This document shows positions 30,518 to 40,188 of a DNA stretch of 64,000 nucleotides, piece after piece. Below the pieces are notes generated by a model that did no database searches, was not told where the DNA came from, and saw only the letters and a list, made by a program, of their open reading frames with translations. Numbering within the stretch: position 1 is the stretch's first letter; every line of letters starts with the position of its first letter. This DNA is from Kiloniella sp. EL199. Its GTDB lineage: Bacteria > Pseudomonadota > Alphaproteobacteria > Kiloniellales > Kiloniellaceae. A program made the position numbers and the translations under genes. The stretch covers positions 124,001 through 188,000 of the forward strand of contig NZ_OMPU01000010.1 in NCBI RefSeq assembly GCF_900313065.1, in the 5' to 3' direction.

Positions 30518-30563
30518 AAAATTTTGTAAAATTATTTAGGGTGATTTTCTAAATTTTGTGAAA
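30505..30563 (+). promoter_or_regulatory. Promoter and RamB-like direct repeats before the ScfR-type gene
   Basis: TTGAGT (30505-30510) and TAAAAT (30527-30532) form a weak promoter with 16-nt spacing. AAATTTTGTAAA (30519-30530) and AAATTTTGTGAAA (30551-30563) are direct repeats 32 bp apart. The first also forms the inverted repeat AATTTT-GT-AAAATT. They resemble the RamB motif ending TTTGCAAA and suggest autoregulation. Confidence 0.45.
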
Positions 30564-30575
30564 GCTGTAAATGTC

Positions 30576-32090
30576 ATGGCGCGACAAATATTTGCGGGGC
30601 GAAAAATTCGCCATTTAAGAAATCAGATCGGGCTTACTCAAATTGCCATGGCCAAGAAAATTGAGATTTCTGCAGCCTATCTGAATTTAGTTGAACATAA
30701 TCAGCGTCCCTTATCAAGGAAGCTGCAAAAGAAGCTGGAAGAAGCCTTTAATGTGAAAGAGGGCGAGCTTACTGGTGGAGAAGAAGCACGGCTTCTTTCT
30801 GCAATGAACGAGCTTTTTTCAGATTCTTTATTTGAAAGGTCAAGGCCCGATACCACGATACTTGGCGATTTTGTTGCCATGCATCCTGAAATCAGCCGTG
30901 CTTTGCTAAAGTTGTATCGTGCTTTTCGCAACGCGCGTGAAGATACACTTAAGGCACGGGAATCAATTTCTTCTGACCCCTATTTTACTGAAACCAGCCA
31001 TCAGCTTCTGACACAGTTAACATCGATCAGATCGTTTGCTGAAATTTTACAAGATAATGATGACCTTTCAGAACATCAGCGGGAAAGATTTACTAATGTC
31101 CTTGTTGATGAAAGCCAAAAATTGACCTCGATGGTTGGCGAGTTGTTTGATTTTATTAATGGGGAATCAAAACAGGCTGCTTTGCTGAGTGAAACGCCTA
31201 CAGATGAAGTGGTTGATATGCTATCCGCCAATGACCATTATTTCCCGGTTTTGGAACAGGCGGCCGAGGAGCTGAGAGATCGCTTGGGTGAACCAAAGCC
31301 ATACGGATTGTTCGATGCTCTGGCGAGTTATCTGGATCAGCAGTTAGGAATCGAGGTTGAGATTGTTCCTGTATCGTCGCAAGAAACGCTCTTGCGAGGA
31401 ATGTGGGAGTTGCAGGGAGAGGACGGTGGTACGCTGAGGTTGATGGAAACGTTGGCGATAAGTTCTTTGAACTTCAGAATGGCAAGAATCATCGCTGAAG
31501 TTGCCTATGCTGATGTGCTGGAAAAGGTTCTTGCCGATGTTCCTTTGAGTAGTAAAGAAGCTAAAAATTTGTGTTTGAAAGCTTTAGGAAGTTATTTTGC
31601 CGGGGCGGTAATGATGCCCTACAGTGTATTTCGAAGCGCTGCTTTTGAACTGCGGCATGATGTTGATTTGCTGCGTAGACGCTTTCGAGCAGGTTTCGAG
31701 CAGGTTTGTCATCGCTTGACTACGTTACAAAAGCCTGAAGAAGAAGGGGTGCCATTCCACTTTATCCGGGTTGATCTTGCCGGGCAGATATCAAAACGCT
31801 TCAGTGCATCCGGTTTGAGGATACCAAGATATGGTGTTCTTTCGCCCGACTGGGGCGTGCAGGACGCATTTTTAAAGCCGGGACGTGTTAATCTTCATTC
31901 TTTACGTGCAGAAGATCAGAGTGTTTATTTTTCAATATCAAAGACAGTTACCAAGCCTGGTGTGATGGTGGGGCAGGCGGGCAATACTTTTGCTGTGAGT
32001 TTAGGGTGTGAGGCCTCGTTTGCACGACATGTCGTTTATGCCGATGGCATCGATTTTGCCCACCCCGACAGCGTTTTAATTGGAAATTAA
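30576..32090 (+). CDS. ScfR/RamB-type XRE regulator with an inserted HisKA-like segment
   Basis: About 504 residues. An N-terminal XRE helix-turn-helix (residues 8-62: RNQIGLTQIAMAKKIEISAA) is followed by a long helix. Residues 133-197 resemble a histidine-kinase dimerisation/phosphoacceptor domain: SHQLLTQLTSIRSFAEIL with His142, then LVDESQKLTSMVGELFDF. No ATPase domain follows. The C-terminal part is the DUF2083 ligand/effector region of short-chain fatty acyl regulators (FRSAAFELRHDVDLLRRRF, FHFIRVDLAGQISKRFSASG, FAVSLGCEASFARHVVYADG). It stops at IGN, just before the Cys-rich tail usual in the family. The ATG at 30576 is preferred to the GTG at 30558. A response regulator gene follows 128 bp downstream. 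Confidence 0.82.
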   Translation: MARQIFAGRKIRHLRNQIGLTQIAMAKKIEISAAYLNLVEHNQRPLSRKLQKKLEEAFNVKEGELTGGEEARLLSAMNELFSDSLFERSRPDTTILGDFVAMHPEISRALLKLYRAFRNAREDTLKARESISSDPYFTETSHQLLTQLTSIRSFAEILQDNDDLSEHQRERFTNVLVDESQKLTSMVGELFDFINGESKQAALLSETPTDEVVDMLSANDHYFPVLEQAAEELRDRLGEPKPYGLFDALASYLDQQLGIEVEIVPVSSQETLLRGMWELQGEDGGTLRLMETLAISSLNFRMARIIAEVAYADVLEKVLADVPLSSKEAKNLCLKALGSYFAGAVMMPYSVFRSAAFELRHDVDLLRRRFRAGFEQVCHRLTTLQKPEEEGVPFHFIRVDLAGQISKRFSASGLRIPRYGVLSPDWGVQDAFLKPGRVNLHSLRAEDQSVYFSISKTVTKPGVMVGQAGNTFAVSLGCEASFARHVVYADGIDFAHPDSVLIGN

Positions 32091-32116
32091 TGCCCGGTAG
32101 TCTGGCCGACAAGGTG

Positions 32117-32136
32117 AAGGTGTGAAAACACACCTT
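32117..32136 (+). other. Hairpin after the ScfR-type gene
   Basis: AAGGTGTG-AAAA-CACACCTT forms a perfect 8-bp stem 26 nt after the stop codon, without a T-run. It may stabilise the 3' end or attenuate transcription into the response regulator gene. Confidence 0.5.
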
Positions 32137-32218
32137 GGCAAAACGTAGGCCTACACTGTAGTGTTAGGTCAACAGGGAATAAATAAAGAGATAACCGGAT
32201 AGCGGAGAAAGGCAGAAA

Positions 32219-32602
32219 ATGCCTCAGACGGTTCTCGTGGTCGAGGACGAGCCTCATATTGTCGACTCATTAAGCTTTCTGATGAAGAAAGCTGGCTTTG
32301 AAGTCTTTATTGCGCGTGATGGTGATGCAGCTTTGCGGATGGTCGAAAGCCGTCCGCCTGATCTGATATTGCTTGATATCATGTTGCCAAGAAGGGACGG
32401 TTTTGAAGTTTTGAAGTATCTACGTGCAAATGATACGTGGAAGGCTATGCGTGTTATTTTGTTGACGGCAAAAGGGCGTGACGTTGATCGATTGAAGGGG
32501 ATGGAACTCGGCGCCGATGATTTTGTGACGAAGCCTTTTTCAACAAAAGATGTGGTTAGATTGGTTAAACAGCATCTGGGCGTTGAAGAGAAGCTGGCCT
32601 AG
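32219..32602 (+). CDS. Single-domain response regulator (CheY-like REC only)
   Basis: A 127-residue receiver domain with no output module. Acidic pocket Asp10/Glu11 (VVEDEPH), phospho-acceptor Asp53 (LILLDIMLPRRDG), Thr83 (LLTAKG) and Lys105 (VTKPFS) are all intact, so it should be phosphorylatable. The ATG is preceded by GGAGAAAGGCAG. It lies between a regulator carrying a HisKA-like segment and a symporter-linked histidine kinase on the same strand. It is therefore the obvious receiver for that kinase, and it must act through a partner protein. Confidence 0.93.
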   Translation: MPQTVLVVEDEPHIVDSLSFLMKKAGFEVFIARDGDAALRMVESRPPDLILLDIMLPRRDGFEVLKYLRANDTWKAMRVILLTAKGRDVDRLKGMELGADDFVTKPFSTKDVVRLVKQHLGVEEKLA

Positions 32603-32662
32603 TTTCCCAAAATTAATGGCAATCAAGTATACGAGTTCGCTATTTCCCTGGGAGGAGCATGA

Positions 32663-33001
32663 GTGAGCCGACCCGGTGATAAAGGTGATCGCAGTATTGC
32701 ACTGTTCCTGTTGGCGCTACTGCTTTTCAGCCCTCTTTTCCTTTCTATCTTTAGTGATGAAAAGCTTCTGTGGGGGCTTCCGCCGCTATTTTTGTATCTT
32801 TTTGCTGCTTGGGGCGGGGTTATCGCTGCTGTAGCCTGGTCAGCTTCGAAAGATGCTAATGATGCAATAAATGCGCTTGATCCCAATGAGCCGACTGTGA
32901 TTGATGTTCTGATATCGGATGCGAGTGTTTCTTCGGATAAAAAAGGGTCAGCAGTAGAGAATACCAATCTTTCTTCAAAGGATGGTGATCATGCTGGTTG
33001 A
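32663..33001 (+). CDS. Small two-helix membrane protein before the symporter-kinase
   Basis: A 112-residue protein with two membrane helices (IALFLLALLLFSPLFLSIF and LWGLPPLFLYLFAAWGGVIA) and a hydrophilic acidic tail. The pattern of a short charged N-terminus, two helices and a linking DEKLLWGLPPL resembles the small subunits (DUF4212/DUF485-like) that accompany sodium/solute symporters. The start is the GTG at 32663, with GGGAGGAG about 5 nt upstream. An ATG four bases earlier is out of frame and stops at once. Its end overlaps the kinase gene by 11 nt, indicating translational coupling and probable complex formation with the symporter domain. Confidence 0.72.
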   Translation: MSRPGDKGDRSIALFLLALLLFSPLFLSIFSDEKLLWGLPPLFLYLFAAWGGVIAAVAWSASKDANDAINALDPNEPTVIDVLISDASVSSDKKGSAVENTNLSSKDGDHAG

Positions 33002-35747
33002 CTGGATCATCATACTTTCTTCTATCGGCTATCTTCTGGTGCTTTTTGCGATTGCTTACATTGCAGACAAGCGTGCGGAGCGTGGGGCGGGAATCACGTC
33101 ACACCCTTATATTTATGCCCTCTCATTGGGGGTGTATTGTACATCTTGGACATTCTATGGTTCAGTTGGACGTGCGGCGTCTAGTGGTTTGGATTTTCTG
33201 CCCATTTATTTGGGGCCTACTCTTGTTTTTGTTTTGTGGTGGCTGGTTGTCAAGAAAATCATCCGAATAACAAAAGCCCATCGTATAACATCAATTGCCG
33301 ATTTTATCTCTTCCCGTTACGGGAAAAGCACGCCTTTGAGTGCCTTGGTAACAGTAATCGCGGTTGTGGGAATTGTCCCCTATATATCCCTGCAGCTCAA
33401 AGCTGTTGCTACGAGTTTTAATGTTTTAAAGCAATATCCGGAAGTCATTGCTCCACTTAATTCTCCGCCAATTGCCACGGTTGCAGACACGGCTTTTTGG
33501 GTCGCTTTGGTTTTGGCTATTTTTGCGATCCTCTTTGGGACCAGACATATTGATAACAGTGAGCATCATGATGGTGTTGTGGTTGCCATTGCTTTTGAAT
33601 CCGTTGTGAAGCTTCTTGCTTTTTTGGCTGTCGGGATTTTTGTCACCTTCGGACTCTATGATGGTTTTGGTGATCTTTTTCAGCAGGCGTCACGAGTGCC
33701 GGAACTTGTCCAGTTGATGACTTTTGAGAAGGAAGGTGCTTACACAACGTGGGTGACTTTAACGACCTTGTCCATGGTTGCGGCAGTATGTTTGCCACGA
33801 CAGTTTCAGGTTATTGCCGTTGAGAACGTTAACGAACCCGAGTTACGAAAAGGTGTATGGTTTTTCCCGCTCTACCTGCTTGCCATCAATATCTTTGTTT
33901 TGCCCATTGCTTTGGGGGGAATGCTTCAGTTTCCACGCGGGGATGTAAATGCAGATACTTTTATCCTCACGCTCCCTATGGCGCACGAACAGGAAATGCT
34001 TGCTCTTCTTGTGTTTCTGGGTGGTCTTTCTGCTGCAACATCTATGGTTATTGTTGCTACGATCGCTTTGAGTACGATGGTTTGCAATGATCTGGTGATG
34101 CCTGTGCTTTTGAGGTGGAACTGGCTTGGCCTGAAGAAAAAAAGTGATTTTACAGGTGTTCTGCTTTTTGTGCGGCGCAGCAGTATTATCCTCATCCTTT
34201 TGTTTGGGTACGCCTATTTTCGTTTTTTGGGTGAGAGTGACGCACTTGTTACCATTGGTCTTATTTCTTTTGCGGCGGTTTTCCAGTTTGCACCTGCCAT
34301 GATCGGGGGGATGTTCTGGAAAGGGGGAAATCGCAAAGGGGCGTTGACTGGTCTTACTCTGGGTTTTGTTGTTTGGGCCTATACGCTTTTGTTACCGGCT
34401 TTTGCAAAGTCGGGTTTGTTACCGATTACTTTTATCCCGGCTGGCCCTATGGGGATTGAATTATTGAGACCCTATGAGTTGTTTGGCTTACAAGGGCTTG
34501 ACCATTTAACCCATGCTCTTTTCTGGACAACGGTGTTTAACGCTGGCGCTTATGTGTTTGTATCGCTCTATACCCGTCATTCCGCAATTGAACGTGTACA
34601 AGGAGCGTTATTTGTTGATGTCTATCGATATGCCGATCAGGGGCCGCGATCACAGCTATGGCAAGGCTCTGCTTCTGTGGAAGATTTGTTTAATCTCCTT
34701 GTTCGCTTTTTAGGGCGAGCGAGAGCGGACAGAGCTTTTAGTGGATACTTCAGAGATCGAGGTCTAGAGCGCAGACGGGTGATTACGGCTGATGCTGATC
34801 TGGTTCACGTAACCGAACGTCTTCTTTCCGGTGCTATTGGTGCAGCGTCCGCCCGTGTGATGATTTCTTCTGTTGTGAAGGGAGAAGTTGTCCGTCTTGA
34901 AGAGGTGATGACAATTCTGGATGAGACGTCGCAAGTTATCGAATATAGCCAAAATTTGGAACAAAAATCGAGAGAACTGGAAAGCACAACAGCGCAATTA
35001 CGGTCGGCGAATGAGCGCTTGCAAGAGCTGGATCGCTTGAAGGATGAATTTTTATCGACGGTCAGTCATGAACTCAGAACACCCTTAACGTCTATTCGAT
35101 CTTTCAGTGAAATTTTGAGCGATCACCCCGACTTGGAAGAAGAGGAAAAAAACAGATTTCTGGGTATCATTGTGAAAGAGAGTGTCCGCTTGACGCGGTT
35201 GATTAACCAGGTCCTTGATCTGGCAAAGATAGAAGCGGGACAAATGGAATGGATTCTTGAGGATCTGGATATCCCGCAAGTTGTCGAGAACTCAATGGAC
35301 ACAATGTCTGCAATTCTGAGTGAGAAAGAAATCACGCTTGATGTGGATTTTGCACCTGACCTCCCCATGATTAGGGGGGACAGGGACAGGCTTATGCAAG
35401 TGTTTGTTAATTTGTTGTCCAATGCGGTTAAATTCTGTGATGAAGATCGTGGATGGGTAAAGGTATCTGTTTTCAGGCAAGGTGAGGAAATTGTAATTAC
35501 TGTTGCAGATAACGGACGGGGAGTACCATGGCAAGCGCGTGAGCATATCTTTGAGAAATTCCACCAATCCCGCGAAGGCTTAGCAGATAAACCCCACGGA
35601 ACTGGTCTGGGTTTGAGCATTTCGCGCCAGATTGTTGAGTATTTTGGCGGCCGTCTAGAACTCGTCGAAACAGGTGGTAAGGGATCTGTTTTTGGTGCCT
35701 TTTTGCCTCTTCGAACTGAGCAGATAATCGCAAAAGCCGGGGAGTAA
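32991..35747 (+). CDS. Sodium/solute symporter-linked sensor histidine kinase (CrbS/CbrA-like)
   Basis: About 918 residues. The N-terminal half (about 1-530) is an SSS/SLC5-type transporter domain with about 13 membrane helices (LPIYLGPTLVFVLWWL, ITSIADFISSRYGKS, AAVFQFAPAMIGGMFW). A cytoplasmic linker and coiled coil lead to HisKA with phospho-acceptor His693 (STVSHELRTPLTSIRSFSEIL region). The ATPase domain has its N box (QVFVNLLSNAVKF), G1 (ADNGRGVPW) and G2 (GTGLGLSISRQ). This architecture occurs in CrbS and CbrA, which control acetate or amino-acid use. The ATG at 32991 is preferred (AAGGA 8 nt upstream) over the ATG at 32982. Confidence 0.92.
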   Translation: MLVDWIIILSSIGYLLVLFAIAYIADKRAERGAGITSHPYIYALSLGVYCTSWTFYGSVGRAASSGLDFLPIYLGPTLVFVLWWLVVKKIIRITKAHRITSIADFISSRYGKSTPLSALVTVIAVVGIVPYISLQLKAVATSFNVLKQYPEVIAPLNSPPIATVADTAFWVALVLAIFAILFGTRHIDNSEHHDGVVVAIAFESVVKLLAFLAVGIFVTFGLYDGFGDLFQQASRVPELVQLMTFEKEGAYTTWVTLTTLSMVAAVCLPRQFQVIAVENVNEPELRKGVWFFPLYLLAINIFVLPIALGGMLQFPRGDVNADTFILTLPMAHEQEMLALLVFLGGLSAATSMVIVATIALSTMVCNDLVMPVLLRWNWLGLKKKSDFTGVLLFVRRSSIILILLFGYAYFRFLGESDALVTIGLISFAAVFQFAPAMIGGMFWKGGNRKGALTGLTLGFVVWAYTLLLPAFAKSGLLPITFIPAGPMGIELLRPYELFGLQGLDHLTHALFWTTVFNAGAYVFVSLYTRHSAIERVQGALFVDVYRYADQGPRSQLWQGSASVEDLFNLLVRFLGRARADRAFSGYFRDRGLERRRVITADADLVHVTERLLSGAIGAASARVMISSVVKGEVVRLEEVMTILDETSQVIEYSQNLEQKSRELESTTAQLRSANERLQELDRLKDEFLSTVSHELRTPLTSIRSFSEILSDHPDLEEEEKNRFLGIIVKESVRLTRLINQVLDLAKIEAGQMEWILEDLDIPQVVENSMDTMSAILSEKEITLDVDFAPDLPMIRGDRDRLMQVFVNLLSNAVKFCDEDRGWVKVSVFRQGEEIVITVADNGRGVPWQAREHIFEKFHQSREGLADKPHGTGLGLSISRQIVEYFGGRLELVETGGKGSVFGAFLPLRTEQIIAKAGE

Positions 35748-37765: not shown

Positions 37766-38413
37766 TTAGCTGCTTTCTTTGGGGGCAAAGTCACCGGACT
37801 GTACTTTTTCGCGAAGCTTGCTGTTGAGCTCAGAGAGATTCCCTCCCAAGCTTTTAAGCGCTGATGTGTAGTCAGAGCGATAGGTAGAACGCAGGCTAAT
37901 GCCTTCAGCAGCTATGTCTGTGATGATATAGTCGGATGAATTATCTTTCTTTTCTATTCGCCATAAAACTTGTGAGGGTTCACCATTTTCAGTTTTAACT
38001 TTACTAAAAACAATAAAGAAAGATTTCTTCGGAACAACTTTTGTGACTTTGAATTCTGAATCAGCGTACTGAGAGAAAGTCGGGAGAAAGCGTTGAACCA
38101 TGACATCTTCAAAAATTGTCGTGAATTCCTTGCGGTGGCTGTCTTCTGCTTTTCGCCAGTATTTCCCAATTACAAAGCGCGCAATTCCGTCAATATCAAA
38201 GTTTTTATTAAGGAGTGCGCGGAATTGTTTTTCGCGCTCTTCTGTTGATATATCTTCGTTCGATAGTTGGCTGATTGCCTTTTTCTGCAGGGTTTTTAGA
38301 AAATGACCTGCAGCATCATCTGCGTTTGCTGCCCCATTAAAGACAGCTAAACAGAAAGCAGCCCCCGCAAGGAGGGCTGCGATATTTTTTATAAAGCCTG
38401 TAATCTGCTTCAT
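37766..38413 (-). CDS. mlaC: MlaC/Ttg2D family periplasmic phospholipid-binding protein
   Basis: A 215-residue secreted protein that shuttles phospholipid between the outer-membrane MlaA complex and the inner-membrane MlaFEDB transporter. The signal peptide is at residues 1-31 (IAALLAGAAFCLAVFNGAANA). The mature chain has the Tol-tolerance/MlaC pattern: REKQFRALLNKNFDIDGIARFVIGKYWRKA, then YIITDIAAEGISLRSTYRSDY. It starts 3 nt after the mlaA stop, so the two are an operon. mlaFED are not in the window. Confidence 0.92.
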   Translation of the reverse strand: MKQITGFIKNIAALLAGAAFCLAVFNGAANADDAAGHFLKTLQKKAISQLSNEDISTEEREKQFRALLNKNFDIDGIARFVIGKYWRKAEDSHRKEFTTIFEDVMVQRFLPTFSQYADSEFKVTKVVPKKSFFIVFSKVKTENGEPSQVLWRIEKKDNSSDYIITDIAAEGISLRSTYRSDYTSALKSLGGNLSELNSKLREKVQSGDFAPKESS

Positions 38414-38416
38414 GAC

Positions 38417-39310
38417 TTATTCCGCATAAGATACCTGATCATCATCTTCGGGGAAGATGTCAGTTAGTCCTGGCGCTAATGTTGGTTCAGTTGTCCCATC
38501 ATTGATTTCGTTTTCGCGTTTCTGATGATAAAGTGAACGAACACGAGCATAAAAATCGACAGAATCACGTTTTAGCTCATCAACCGTTTCGATGTTACGT
38601 GATCTTTTATCAATACCGTCGGTTACTTTGCGTCCAATCAGAACTTCTGTTTTGGCAACATAAGTCAGAGGATCAAGAAGAGCATCCCCAACCAGACCAA
38701 CACTGTCCCGAACGTTCGACGGCCCCAGGATTGGCAGAACAAGGTAAGGGCCTTCGGGTACACCCCATGTTCCCATCGTCTGACCAAAATCTTCTGAGTG
38801 ATATTCCAGACCTGTTTGGCTAGCAACATCAGCCAAGCCGCCAGCACCGGCAATTGTGTTTATCAGGAAACGGGCAAAAGTATTTTCCGCCTTCTCCAGA
38901 TCACCTTGCAGCAAGTCGTTGGCTAGAATGACAGGTGTGTATGTGTTTCTGAGGAAGTTGCGAACAGAATCACGAATAGGAGAAGGAACCAGGAAACGAT
39001 ACCCTTCTGCAACTGGTCGGAAAATGATCGTGTCTGCTGCATCGTTAAACGCAAAAATAAAGCGGTTAACGGTTTCAATCGGATCGTTGTCACCTTCGTC
39101 GACTGCGGTTGAGCCTTCGGTCTGCGCCCACTGATCATCAGTGCTTGCATTGGCTTCATCTTGCAGTGTTGAATTCGGCTTACTTGCACAGCCTGTCACA
39201 AAAATAGCAACAGCGGTAAAAGCTACCAAACGTTTAATCAGTCGAGAATTAATCTCGGACAAAATACCTAACCCCACGACATTTCGCCTATCATTTGTTT
39301 CTACAGTCAT
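38417..39310 (-). CDS. mlaA: MlaA/VacJ family outer-membrane lipoprotein
   Basis: A 297-residue VacJ/MlaA lipoprotein that removes mislocalised phospholipids from the outer leaflet. A lipobox (FVTGC, Cys about residue 41) follows an unusually long N-terminal extension. The family blocks are DPIETVNRFIFAFNDAADTI, PIRDSVRNFLRNTYTPVILAN, DFGQTMGTWGVPEGPYLVLP and GPSNVRDSVGLVGD. A C-terminal charged tail ends the protein. ATG codons further in (for example just before the hydrophobic core) are absent, so the 39310 start is kept. It is the first gene of the mlaA-mlaC pair. Confidence 0.93.
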   Translation of the reverse strand: MTVETNDRRNVVGLGILSEINSRLIKRLVAFTAVAIFVTGCASKPNSTLQDEANASTDDQWAQTEGSTAVDEGDNDPIETVNRFIFAFNDAADTIIFRPVAEGYRFLVPSPIRDSVRNFLRNTYTPVILANDLLQGDLEKAENTFARFLINTIAGAGGLADVASQTGLEYHSEDFGQTMGTWGVPEGPYLVLPILGPSNVRDSVGLVGDALLDPLTYVAKTEVLIGRKVTDGIDKRSRNIETVDELKRDSVDFYARVRSLYHQKRENEINDGTTEPTLAPGLTDIFPEDDDQVSYAE

Positions 39311-39690: not shown

Positions 39691-40188
39691 GTGATTGACC
39701 CAAAAGAGGTAACGCCTTTAATTAGTTTTGAGGGAACTGTGCCGTCAGAATGGCTTGATTATAACGGGCATATGAATGTGGCCTATTACATGCACGTTTT
39801 TTGTGATGCGACAGATGCCTTTTTGGAGTTTTTTGGTGTTACAGAAGGTTATCGTCAGGAAATGAACTGTTCGACCTTTGTTGTCGAAAATCATGTGAAC
39901 TACATGAAAGAGCTTCACCTTGGGTCTAATATGCGGGTGGAGACCCGGTTACTTGGGTATGATGTTAAAAGGATGAGTTATCATCATTCTCTATATAATG
40001 TTGATAAAGGTTATTTAGCTGCAACATCCGAATGGATATCTCTTCATGTGGATTTGAAAAGGCGTAGCTCATGCGAGATGCCAAATATTTTGCTTGATAA
40101 TCTGAAAGATATATACGCAGCTCAAAAAGGCTTACCCTTGCCTGTTAACATCGGGCGTTCGATAATGTCCTGGAATACAACGCACTGA
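39691..40188 (+). CDS. Hotdog-fold thioesterase family protein
   Basis: A 165-residue single-hotdog acyl-CoA thioesterase-like protein. The family hallmark is SEWLDYNGHMNVAYYMHVF (the DxNGHMN motif with the catalytic Asp), followed by ENHVNYMKELHLGSNMRVETR and MSYHHSLYNVDKG. Related proteins hydrolyse 4-hydroxybenzoyl-CoA or betainyl/carnitine-CoA derivatives; the substrate here is unknown. The start is a GTG at 39691 with AAGGA 9 nt upstream. It is not evidently in an operon. A decamer repeat follows its stop. Confidence 0.87.
   Translation: MIDPKEVTPLISFEGTVPSEWLDYNGHMNVAYYMHVFCDATDAFLEFFGVTEGYRQEMNCSTFVVENHVNYMKELHLGSNMRVETRLLGYDVKRMSYHHSLYNVDKGYLAATSEWISLHVDLKRRSSCEMPNILLDNLKDIYAAQKGLPLPVNIGRSIMSWNTTH

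Follow-up and report, generated by a model that had tools for sequence, protein, structure and literature searches.

How can a receiver domain that carries no output of its own act on transcription? Receivers that stand alone are common, and for many of them no output is known. The question is raised by a locus in the window analysed here, a stretch of 64,000 nucleotides from Kiloniella sp. EL199 (contig NZ_OMPU01000010.1, positions 124,001 to 188,000), in which four genes in one direction (30576-35747, open reading frames (ORFs) confirmed) encode a transcription factor of the ScfR family, a bare receiver, a small membrane protein and an SLC5-type histidine kinase. A preliminary description of this DNA had noticed a HisKA-like segment in the regulator and had proposed a route from the kinase through the receiver to the DNA-binding protein. 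The regulator carries a genuine HisKA (DHp) domain, and a three-protein chain running from the SLC5 kinase through the stand-alone receiver to the DHp of the ScfR-type transcription factor is, judged by comparative analysis, about as probable as all other explanations together.

Residues 140-193 of the regulator match the Pfam family HisKA (PF00512) with 31.8 bits against a curated cut-off of 26.9 (E 1.5e-7), His142 being the acceptor. The gapless correspondence with the partner kinase that had been pointed out earlier was recovered: around the two histidines 28 of 65 positions are identical, and the BLOSUM62 score is 148, while none of 2000 shuffles scored above 39. By BLASTP, residues 134-206 align to the same kinase over 73 columns with 0 gaps (E 6.9e-15). 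The genome holds 54 HisKA matches, the regulator counted, and the best kinase match of the regulator's domain is its neighbour (E 7.2e-14), the runner-up standing at 2.4e-5, a margin of more than 8 orders of magnitude. A chance resemblance to a kinase was rejected on the basis of the Pfam score, this genome-wide margin and the gapless alignment. As the preliminary description had stated, no ATPase domain was matched in the regulator by Pfam; with Gln in addition at the position following the acceptor (H+1), the protein does not qualify as a histidine kinase. It does belong to the ScfR family (PF09856), as evidenced by matches to HTH_3 (31.8 bits, cut-off 23), M78 (45.6 bits, cut-off 22) and ScfRs (117.6 bits, cut-off 24), and it scored 295.3 bits with the RamB equivalog NF038139, under the cut-off of 700. 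Its closest named relative is that of K. laminariae (80% identity).

For comparison, 84 rows from named loci and from a class-wide survey were reduced to 76 distinct regulators by removing rows more than 97% identical; the loci L002-L030, which have short flanks and in several cases repeat named loci, are outside this count. A domain alignment of the window sequence and 75 of the 76 distinct regulators (L194 left out) was used for a PDB profile search, the Pfam count given below and a model of the domain. With the 76-row profile, 11 of 12 PDB matches were histidine kinases or the pseudokinase DivL, HK853 being the first. In the AlphaFold2 model of the whole regulator (pLDDT 84.5, pTM 0.69), helices 135-160 and 166-204 form a hairpin, preceded by a long helix (104-133) and placed between the DNA-binding domain and the PrpR-like half; the C-terminal half superimposes on Mycobacterium tuberculosis PrpR (6cyy) with a TM score of 0.82 by target length. 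A Foldseek search with the whole model gave 10 matches with E<=0.001, all of them PrpR and IrrE/PprI and no kinase. With the model of the domain alone, ranks 1-28 were histidine kinases with HK853 nearest, at a best E of 0.009 and none below 0.001.

The pattern of residues kept and lost in this domain is informative. His142, whose conservation in orthologues was among the criteria of the preliminary description, is present in 66 of the 76 distinct regulators, yet the catalytic acid position H+1 is Glu or Asp in just 11, so the acceptor was kept while the kinase chemistry was lost; acceptor chemistry, rather than kinase chemistry, is thus likely to be what was retained. Thr, Ser or Asn is found at H+4 in 71/76. 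On the docking face, the regulators show Thr at H+7 (57/76), Arg at H+10 (61/76), Ser at H+11 (68/76) and Ile at H+15 (76/76), and the SLC5 kinases the same letters (73, 79, 68 and 73, respectively, of the 80 among 82 kinases in which an H-box was found, repeats not removed). Of the other kinases in the genome, 29 were compared, which together with the partner are the 30 top-scoring of the 54 HisKA matches. The Thr, Arg and Ser found at H+7, H+10 and H+11 are shared by 0/29 of them; at H+7 they have Asn or Ala, at H+11 Gly, and Arg does not occur at H+10. In DivL, the substitution T557N at the position equivalent to H+7 was reported to disrupt binding of the receiver DivK (PMC4211667), and the title of PDB entry 4jau lists H+8, H+11, H+15 and two later positions of HK853 with the residues that were mutated in rewiring the interface. 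Since the docking letters are shared and coincide with the DivL H+7 and HK853 rewiring positions, it is likely that one receiver recognises the DHp of both the kinase and the transcription factor, shared descent explaining part of the likeness.

The two putative partners in the chain have the expected makeup. The receiver is a single Pfam domain with no output domain attached, and among the receivers aligned Asp53 and Lys105 are present in 87/87, with at most 31 residues beyond the domain (repeats not removed), so that the earlier claim of a bare receiver with an intact Asp53 held. In the kinase no symporter (SSF) match was obtained with Pfam at E<=1, although residues 10-475 match the SLC5-STAC part of Pseudomonas CbrA (PDB 10ED, E 8.6e-74), which has been solved as a structure (PMC13022988); because of this match the name symporter-kinase is kept. 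Its acceptor histidine is residue 696 counting from the ATG at 32982 and 693 from that at 32991.

The same genes recur beside insert-bearing regulators, in line with the gene-order survey that the preliminary description had called for. In 80 named loci with 81 ScfR genes (35 with the insert and 46 without), where partners were sought in the retrieved flanking DNA, a receiver lies near 31/35 insert-bearing genes and an SLC5 kinase near 27/35, as against 3/46 and 1/46 of the insert-free genes (Fisher 1e-14 for the receiver and 2e-13 for the kinase, not corrected for kinship). Several of the misses fall on short contigs, and the sole insert-free ScfR gene near an SLC5 kinase is a second ScfR gene (L054:8114-9529) a few kb from an insert-bearing one. 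In a class-wide draw of 387 genomes at least 90% complete, 64 had a match, and the insert-bearing regulator was found in at least 53 genomes of 22 family codes and the SLC5 kinase without the regulator in at least 11; these counts are lower bounds because at most 8 candidates were scored per genome. Of these, 49/53 regulator-bearing and 11/11 kinase-only loci were examined, and the former contained the receiver in 44/49 and the SLC5 kinase in 44/49, after extension of five stretches (L183, L184, L187, L199, L200) to take in a kinase at a distance of 8-11 kb. Pelagibius (L052) and L062 have the receiver beside the regulator and no SLC5 kinase gene in the retrieved DNA, suggesting that the receiver is the closer partner of the two.

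In loci without the regulator, a different protein occupies part of this arrangement. In 9 of the 11 such loci (L172-L177, L179-L181) the ORF between the receiver and the SLC5 kinase matches a hidden Markov model (HMM) for proteins that combine a hydrophobic N-terminus, a PAS domain and a DnaQ-type exonuclease domain with what, by eye, is a degenerate kinase core lacking the histidine. Four of these proteins were scanned with Pfam HisKA and stayed below the cut-off: three gave E values between 5e-4 and 0.01, and one gave no match. An ORF of this type is present also in 3 of the 49 regulator-bearing loci. This exonuclease protein may be a further target through which the receiver acts.

With regard to the origin of the domain, ordinary ScfR proteins (46 insert-free rows) have a short linker at the place of the approximately 70 extra residues. 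In a tree of the flanking parts (81 rows), 44 insert-bearing and 37 insert-free sequences are split by one branch with a support of 99 in the Shimodaira-Hasegawa-like approximate likelihood ratio test (SH-aLRT). A HisKA tree of 134 rows, which with 76 columns is short of data and leaves 68/129 inner branches open, sets all 77 regulator domains apart by a single branch (SH-aLRT 99). Furthermore, an HMM of SLC5-kinase HisKA domains outscores one of other HisKA domains, built from other kinases of this genome, for 77/77 regulator domains (medians 40.2 vs 10.7 bits). The earlier suggestion that the HisKA piece may be a copy from the kinase is thus probably right as to its source in the SLC5-kinase lineage; a recent local duplication of the neighbour's domain was rejected, since both trees put the insert-bearing regulators together (SH-aLRT 99). 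The simplest history that fits these trees would be a single old transfer of a DHp from the SLC5-kinase lineage into an ScfR gene, followed by long retention.

Taken together, the domain, His142, the gene set and the docking letters are best fitted by the proposed route from kinase to receiver to regulator. In such a chain the SLC5-type kinase, at the membrane, would sense a small substrate and phosphorylate Asp53 of the receiver. The receiver would then bind the DHp of the regulator with the face by which it contacts the kinase, and would most likely hand its phosphate on to His142, an Asp-to-His transfer as from Spo0F to Spo0B. The DHp bundle, which has the DNA-binding domain on one side and the CoA-sensing half on the other, would change and thereby alter DNA binding, so that the regulator would join an outside signal from the kinase with an inside one from acyl-CoA, as in PrpR and RamB; possible targets are a propionate/acetate--CoA ligase-like gene and the gene of the regulator itself. 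The steps are not equally firm: binding of the receiver to the DHp of the regulator is probable from the docking face, transfer of phosphate to His142 has an even chance, and the effect on DNA binding and the targets are inferred. More broadly, and a little less confidently than the chain itself, the locus may represent a class of pathways ending in phospho-His on a transcription factor, in which the DHp was taken once, long ago, from the partner kinase and the transcription factor became a second substrate of the receiver belonging to that kinase. The receiver would be a shared messenger that can be connected to various outputs with a DHp: some lineages would have a transcription factor in this role, others a membrane exonuclease whose DHp is degenerate. 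Some lineages that later lost the histidine may have turned transfer into docking.

Several observations weigh against this reading. The model of the domain alone reaches a pTM of just 0.57, and only 43/76 domains attain a Pfam HisKA E of 0.01. The branch uniting the regulator and SLC5-kinase domains against other kinases has an SH-aLRT of only 77. Two receiver-facing positions are poorly matched, with H+8 Ser in 38/76 regulators vs 79/80 kinases and H+12 Phe in 28/76 vs 79/80, so the likeness in docking letters may partly be inheritance. L035 and L048, which have His142 and Val at H+10, lack both partners in the retrieved DNA (upstream, the contigs break off after 1.6 and 2.5 kb, respectively); L152 has the His and the Arg and no partner found in the retrieved DNA, and L201 has the kinase and no receiver found there. 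Moreover, His142 is replaced in 10/76 regulators, by Phe in 5 (L183, L184, L187, L199, L200), Tyr in 3 (L044, L046, L192) and Gln in 2 (L193, L198), so phosphotransfer is not required everywhere, which speaks against an obligatory transfer. Loss of His142 looks like an accompaniment of operon break-up, in about three events: the receiver lies directly behind the regulator in 56/65 loci with His142 and in 0/10 without (one more locus was not scored; L189, whose receiver ORF is over-extended, was scored adjacent by hand). The naive Fisher value of 5e-8 (75 rows), however, is not significant phylogenetically, with about 3 changes of His on the tree and between 2 and 5 independent pairs available from its supported branches, and in Magnetovibrio and an f40 genus the regulator has Tyr or Phe and still keeps the receiver and kinase within about 10 kb.

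Because the histidine is absent from those ten regulators, docking may suffice, and for this reason transfer is given even chances and docking without transfer, about half as probable, is the main rival. Phosphorylated receiver would then bind the DHp of the regulator as DivK~P binds DivL and act as an allosteric switch, with His142 serving in packing or hydrogen bonding. The docking-face positions are indeed among the best kept (Ile at H+15 in every regulator, Ser at H+11 in most), the histidine is replaced in some cases by the Tyr seen in DivL, and DivL Y550H was reported to bind DivK~P still (PMC4211667); the exonuclease protein of the regulator-less loci, whose degenerate kinase core appears by eye to lack the histidine, has (I/L)RAAAE(V/T)L in 4 aligned sequences. 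What docking alone accounts for poorly is that His142 and Thr/Ser/Asn at H+4 were maintained in 66 and 71 of 76 regulators despite a freely varying acid, a combination hard to explain without phosphate chemistry.

The residue at H+4 also bears on another possibility, that the DHp of the regulator takes phosphate from the receiver, as a phosphatase or a sink, and so drains the pathway under the control of acyl-CoA. In HisKA proteins Thr, Ser or Asn at H+4 serves phosphatase activity, usually working with the acidic residue at H+1, and here the former is kept and the latter is missing in 65/76; besides, as the receiver has no output domain of its own, draining it leaves no known output, which makes this role improbable. 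DHp domains dimerise, and it could be argued that this one is a borrowed dimerisation module placed where other ScfRs have their ordinary linker, as the helical hairpin of the models would allow, and that linkage to the other genes reflects co-regulation in acetate/propionate metabolism. A dimeriser, nevertheless, would have no need to keep part of the receiver-facing letters of the partner kinase, an acceptor histidine or a tie to receiver and kinase genes, and it is considered still less probable than a sink. Similarly, related DHp domains can form mixed dimers, and the domain looks descended from that of the partner kinase, hence the regulator might pair with the SLC5 kinase, or be trans-phosphorylated by it, and be held at the membrane; the loci of Pelagibius and L062, with the receiver alone at hand, speak against such direct contact, which is the least credible of these explanations. 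The chain through the receiver thus remains the preferred reading.

The closest known systems resemble parts of this locus. RamB (Corynebacterium, Paracoccus), PccR and PrpR share with the regulator an XRE domain, an IrrE-like/GAF CoA-sensing half and an ScfRs C-terminus; unlike it, ordinary ScfR members have no DHp insert of about 70 residues and are rarely found near such a receiver or kinase. Pden_1785, an ScfR homolog of Paracoccus denitrificans, adjoins two-component genes, an arrangement that is perhaps the same, although the portion of the published description available mentions neither a HisKA domain nor a mechanism, its authors having gone on with other genes (PMC10370305). On the kinase side, CbrXA-CbrB, CrbS-CrbR and RpuS-RpuR have, as the kinase of the window, an SLC5 sensor fused to HisKA-HATPase, the defining feature of the CbrA type. 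The response regulator CbrB itself activates transcription. The same has been reported of CrbR, and of RpuR (PMC9100948). In the window, instead of a response regulator with its own DNA-binding domain, there is a 127-residue, one-domain receiver, and the DHp is on the DNA-binding protein.

Bare receivers paired with a DHp that is not part of an active kinase are also known. Spo0B passes phosphate on to a second receiver, Spo0A. Its DHp histidine obtains this phosphate from the stand-alone receiver Spo0F (PMC5231405), a pairing like that predicted for the window. Since the DHp of the window, unlike Spo0B, belongs to a DNA-binding protein, the chain would end on a histidine. DivL is a full pseudokinase with Tyr in place of His, acting on another kinase. 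The window regulator differs from it in having the His, in lacking a CA domain and in being a DNA-binding (XRE) protein; common to both systems is a receiver read by a non-kinase HisKA-type domain with Thr at H+7, as reported for Caulobacter DivK-DivL (PMC4211667).

As the preliminary description had supposed, no account of a transcription factor with a HisKA domain read by a stand-alone receiver was found in the literature searched, some subscription papers lying outside it. The parts are of known kinds, and their joining appears to be new. The locus would offer a widespread case in which the output of a stand-alone receiver can be named, namely a transcription factor that may read it with a kinase-derived domain. 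If this is true, a two-component output would need no receiver on the DNA-binding protein, and ATPase-less DHp proteins such as the regulator and the exonuclease variant could be searched for as hidden receiver targets. It would then also be seen how a single regulator of the use of short-chain fatty acids can unite substrate sensing at the membrane with internal sensing of acyl-CoA.

The inside signal may be modified in this genus. The motif C-X2-C-X4-C binds an iron-sulfur cluster that was described as critical for CoA binding by PrpR (PMC6765138). It is absent from the window regulator and 9 other Kiloniella rows (10 rows from 9 genomes; window, L002-L009, L032), which end before it, and is present in 53/65 insert-bearing rows, the non-Kiloniella misses L027 and L053 running off their contigs, and in 46/46 insert-free rows; among the 49 further loci it is missing in 2, L167 (a short ORF) and L190 (another family). 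The loss in Kiloniella suggests a weakened inside (acyl-CoA) signal.

ScfR proteins have been reported to control acetate and propionate assimilation through sites with paired boxes upstream (PMC10370305), and the promoter of the regulator is organised in a like manner. A footprint is kept there in 9 Kiloniella sequences (window + 8) amid mostly diverged upstream DNA, and the pair TTTGTAAA-N16-32-TTTGTGAA has one occurrence in the genome. The best acetate--CoA ligase gene (acs candidate, L204) has no TTTG(T/C)(A/G)AA box in the 1.5 kb upstream. A second ligase gene (L205/L210), whose best NCBIfam match is propionate--CoA ligase, below its cut-off, has a regulator-like box of the TTTGTAAAA type about 144 bases before the matched start, conserved in 8 genomes (L210-L217); the exact 8-mer is found in 7/8 Kiloniella orthologues and L215 has CTTGTAAA. 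Two places in the genome match the 15-letter pattern TTTGTAAAAWNATTW, namely the regulator and ligase promoters. As it was derived from both and a reversed control also gave 2 matches, this propionate/acetate--CoA ligase-like gene is a suggestion only as a target of the regulator.

Features of the locus, with positions in the window.
Feature	Position	Strand	Basis
XRE/ScfR-family transcription factor with inserted DHp (HisKA), 504 aa	30576..32090	+	Pfam; AlphaFold2 model
Helix-turn-helix, residues 11-65	30606..30770	+	HTH_3 E 1.5e-7
DHp/HisKA domain, residues 134-206; His142 codon 30999-31001	30975..31193	+	PF00512; BLASTP to partner kinase; model helices
CoA-sensing half as in PrpR/RamB: M78/IrrE-like 255-382, ScfRs 383-500	31338..32075	+	Pfam; PrpR match
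Stand-alone receiver, 127 aa, Asp53	32219..32602	+	PF00072 E 1.1e-29
Small membrane protein, two hydrophobic stretches, overlaps kinase start	32663..33001	+	ORF; CbrX-like place and form
SLC5-type sensor histidine kinase, 921 aa; SLC5 part 10-475, HisKA 687-753, HATPase 799-911	32982..35747	+	Pfam; PDB 10ED match
Operator-like footprint, TTTGTAAA..TATTTA..TTTGTGAA..TGTAAA, directly before regulator gene	30523..30575	+	Kiloniella conservation

The small membrane protein between the receiver and the kinase was absent from the preliminary description; a small ORF with a hydrophobic stretch ending at the kinase start was found in 50/55 loci, and in place and form the protein resembles CbrX, a small two-helix protein encoded before the kinase CbrA (PMC13022988). 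The next gene past the kinase encodes an ABC protein and seems unrelated. Beyond it lie ordinary neighbours, encoding MlaC, MlaA and a 4HBT_2 thioesterase-like protein (Pfam; 37766-39310 and 39691-40188).
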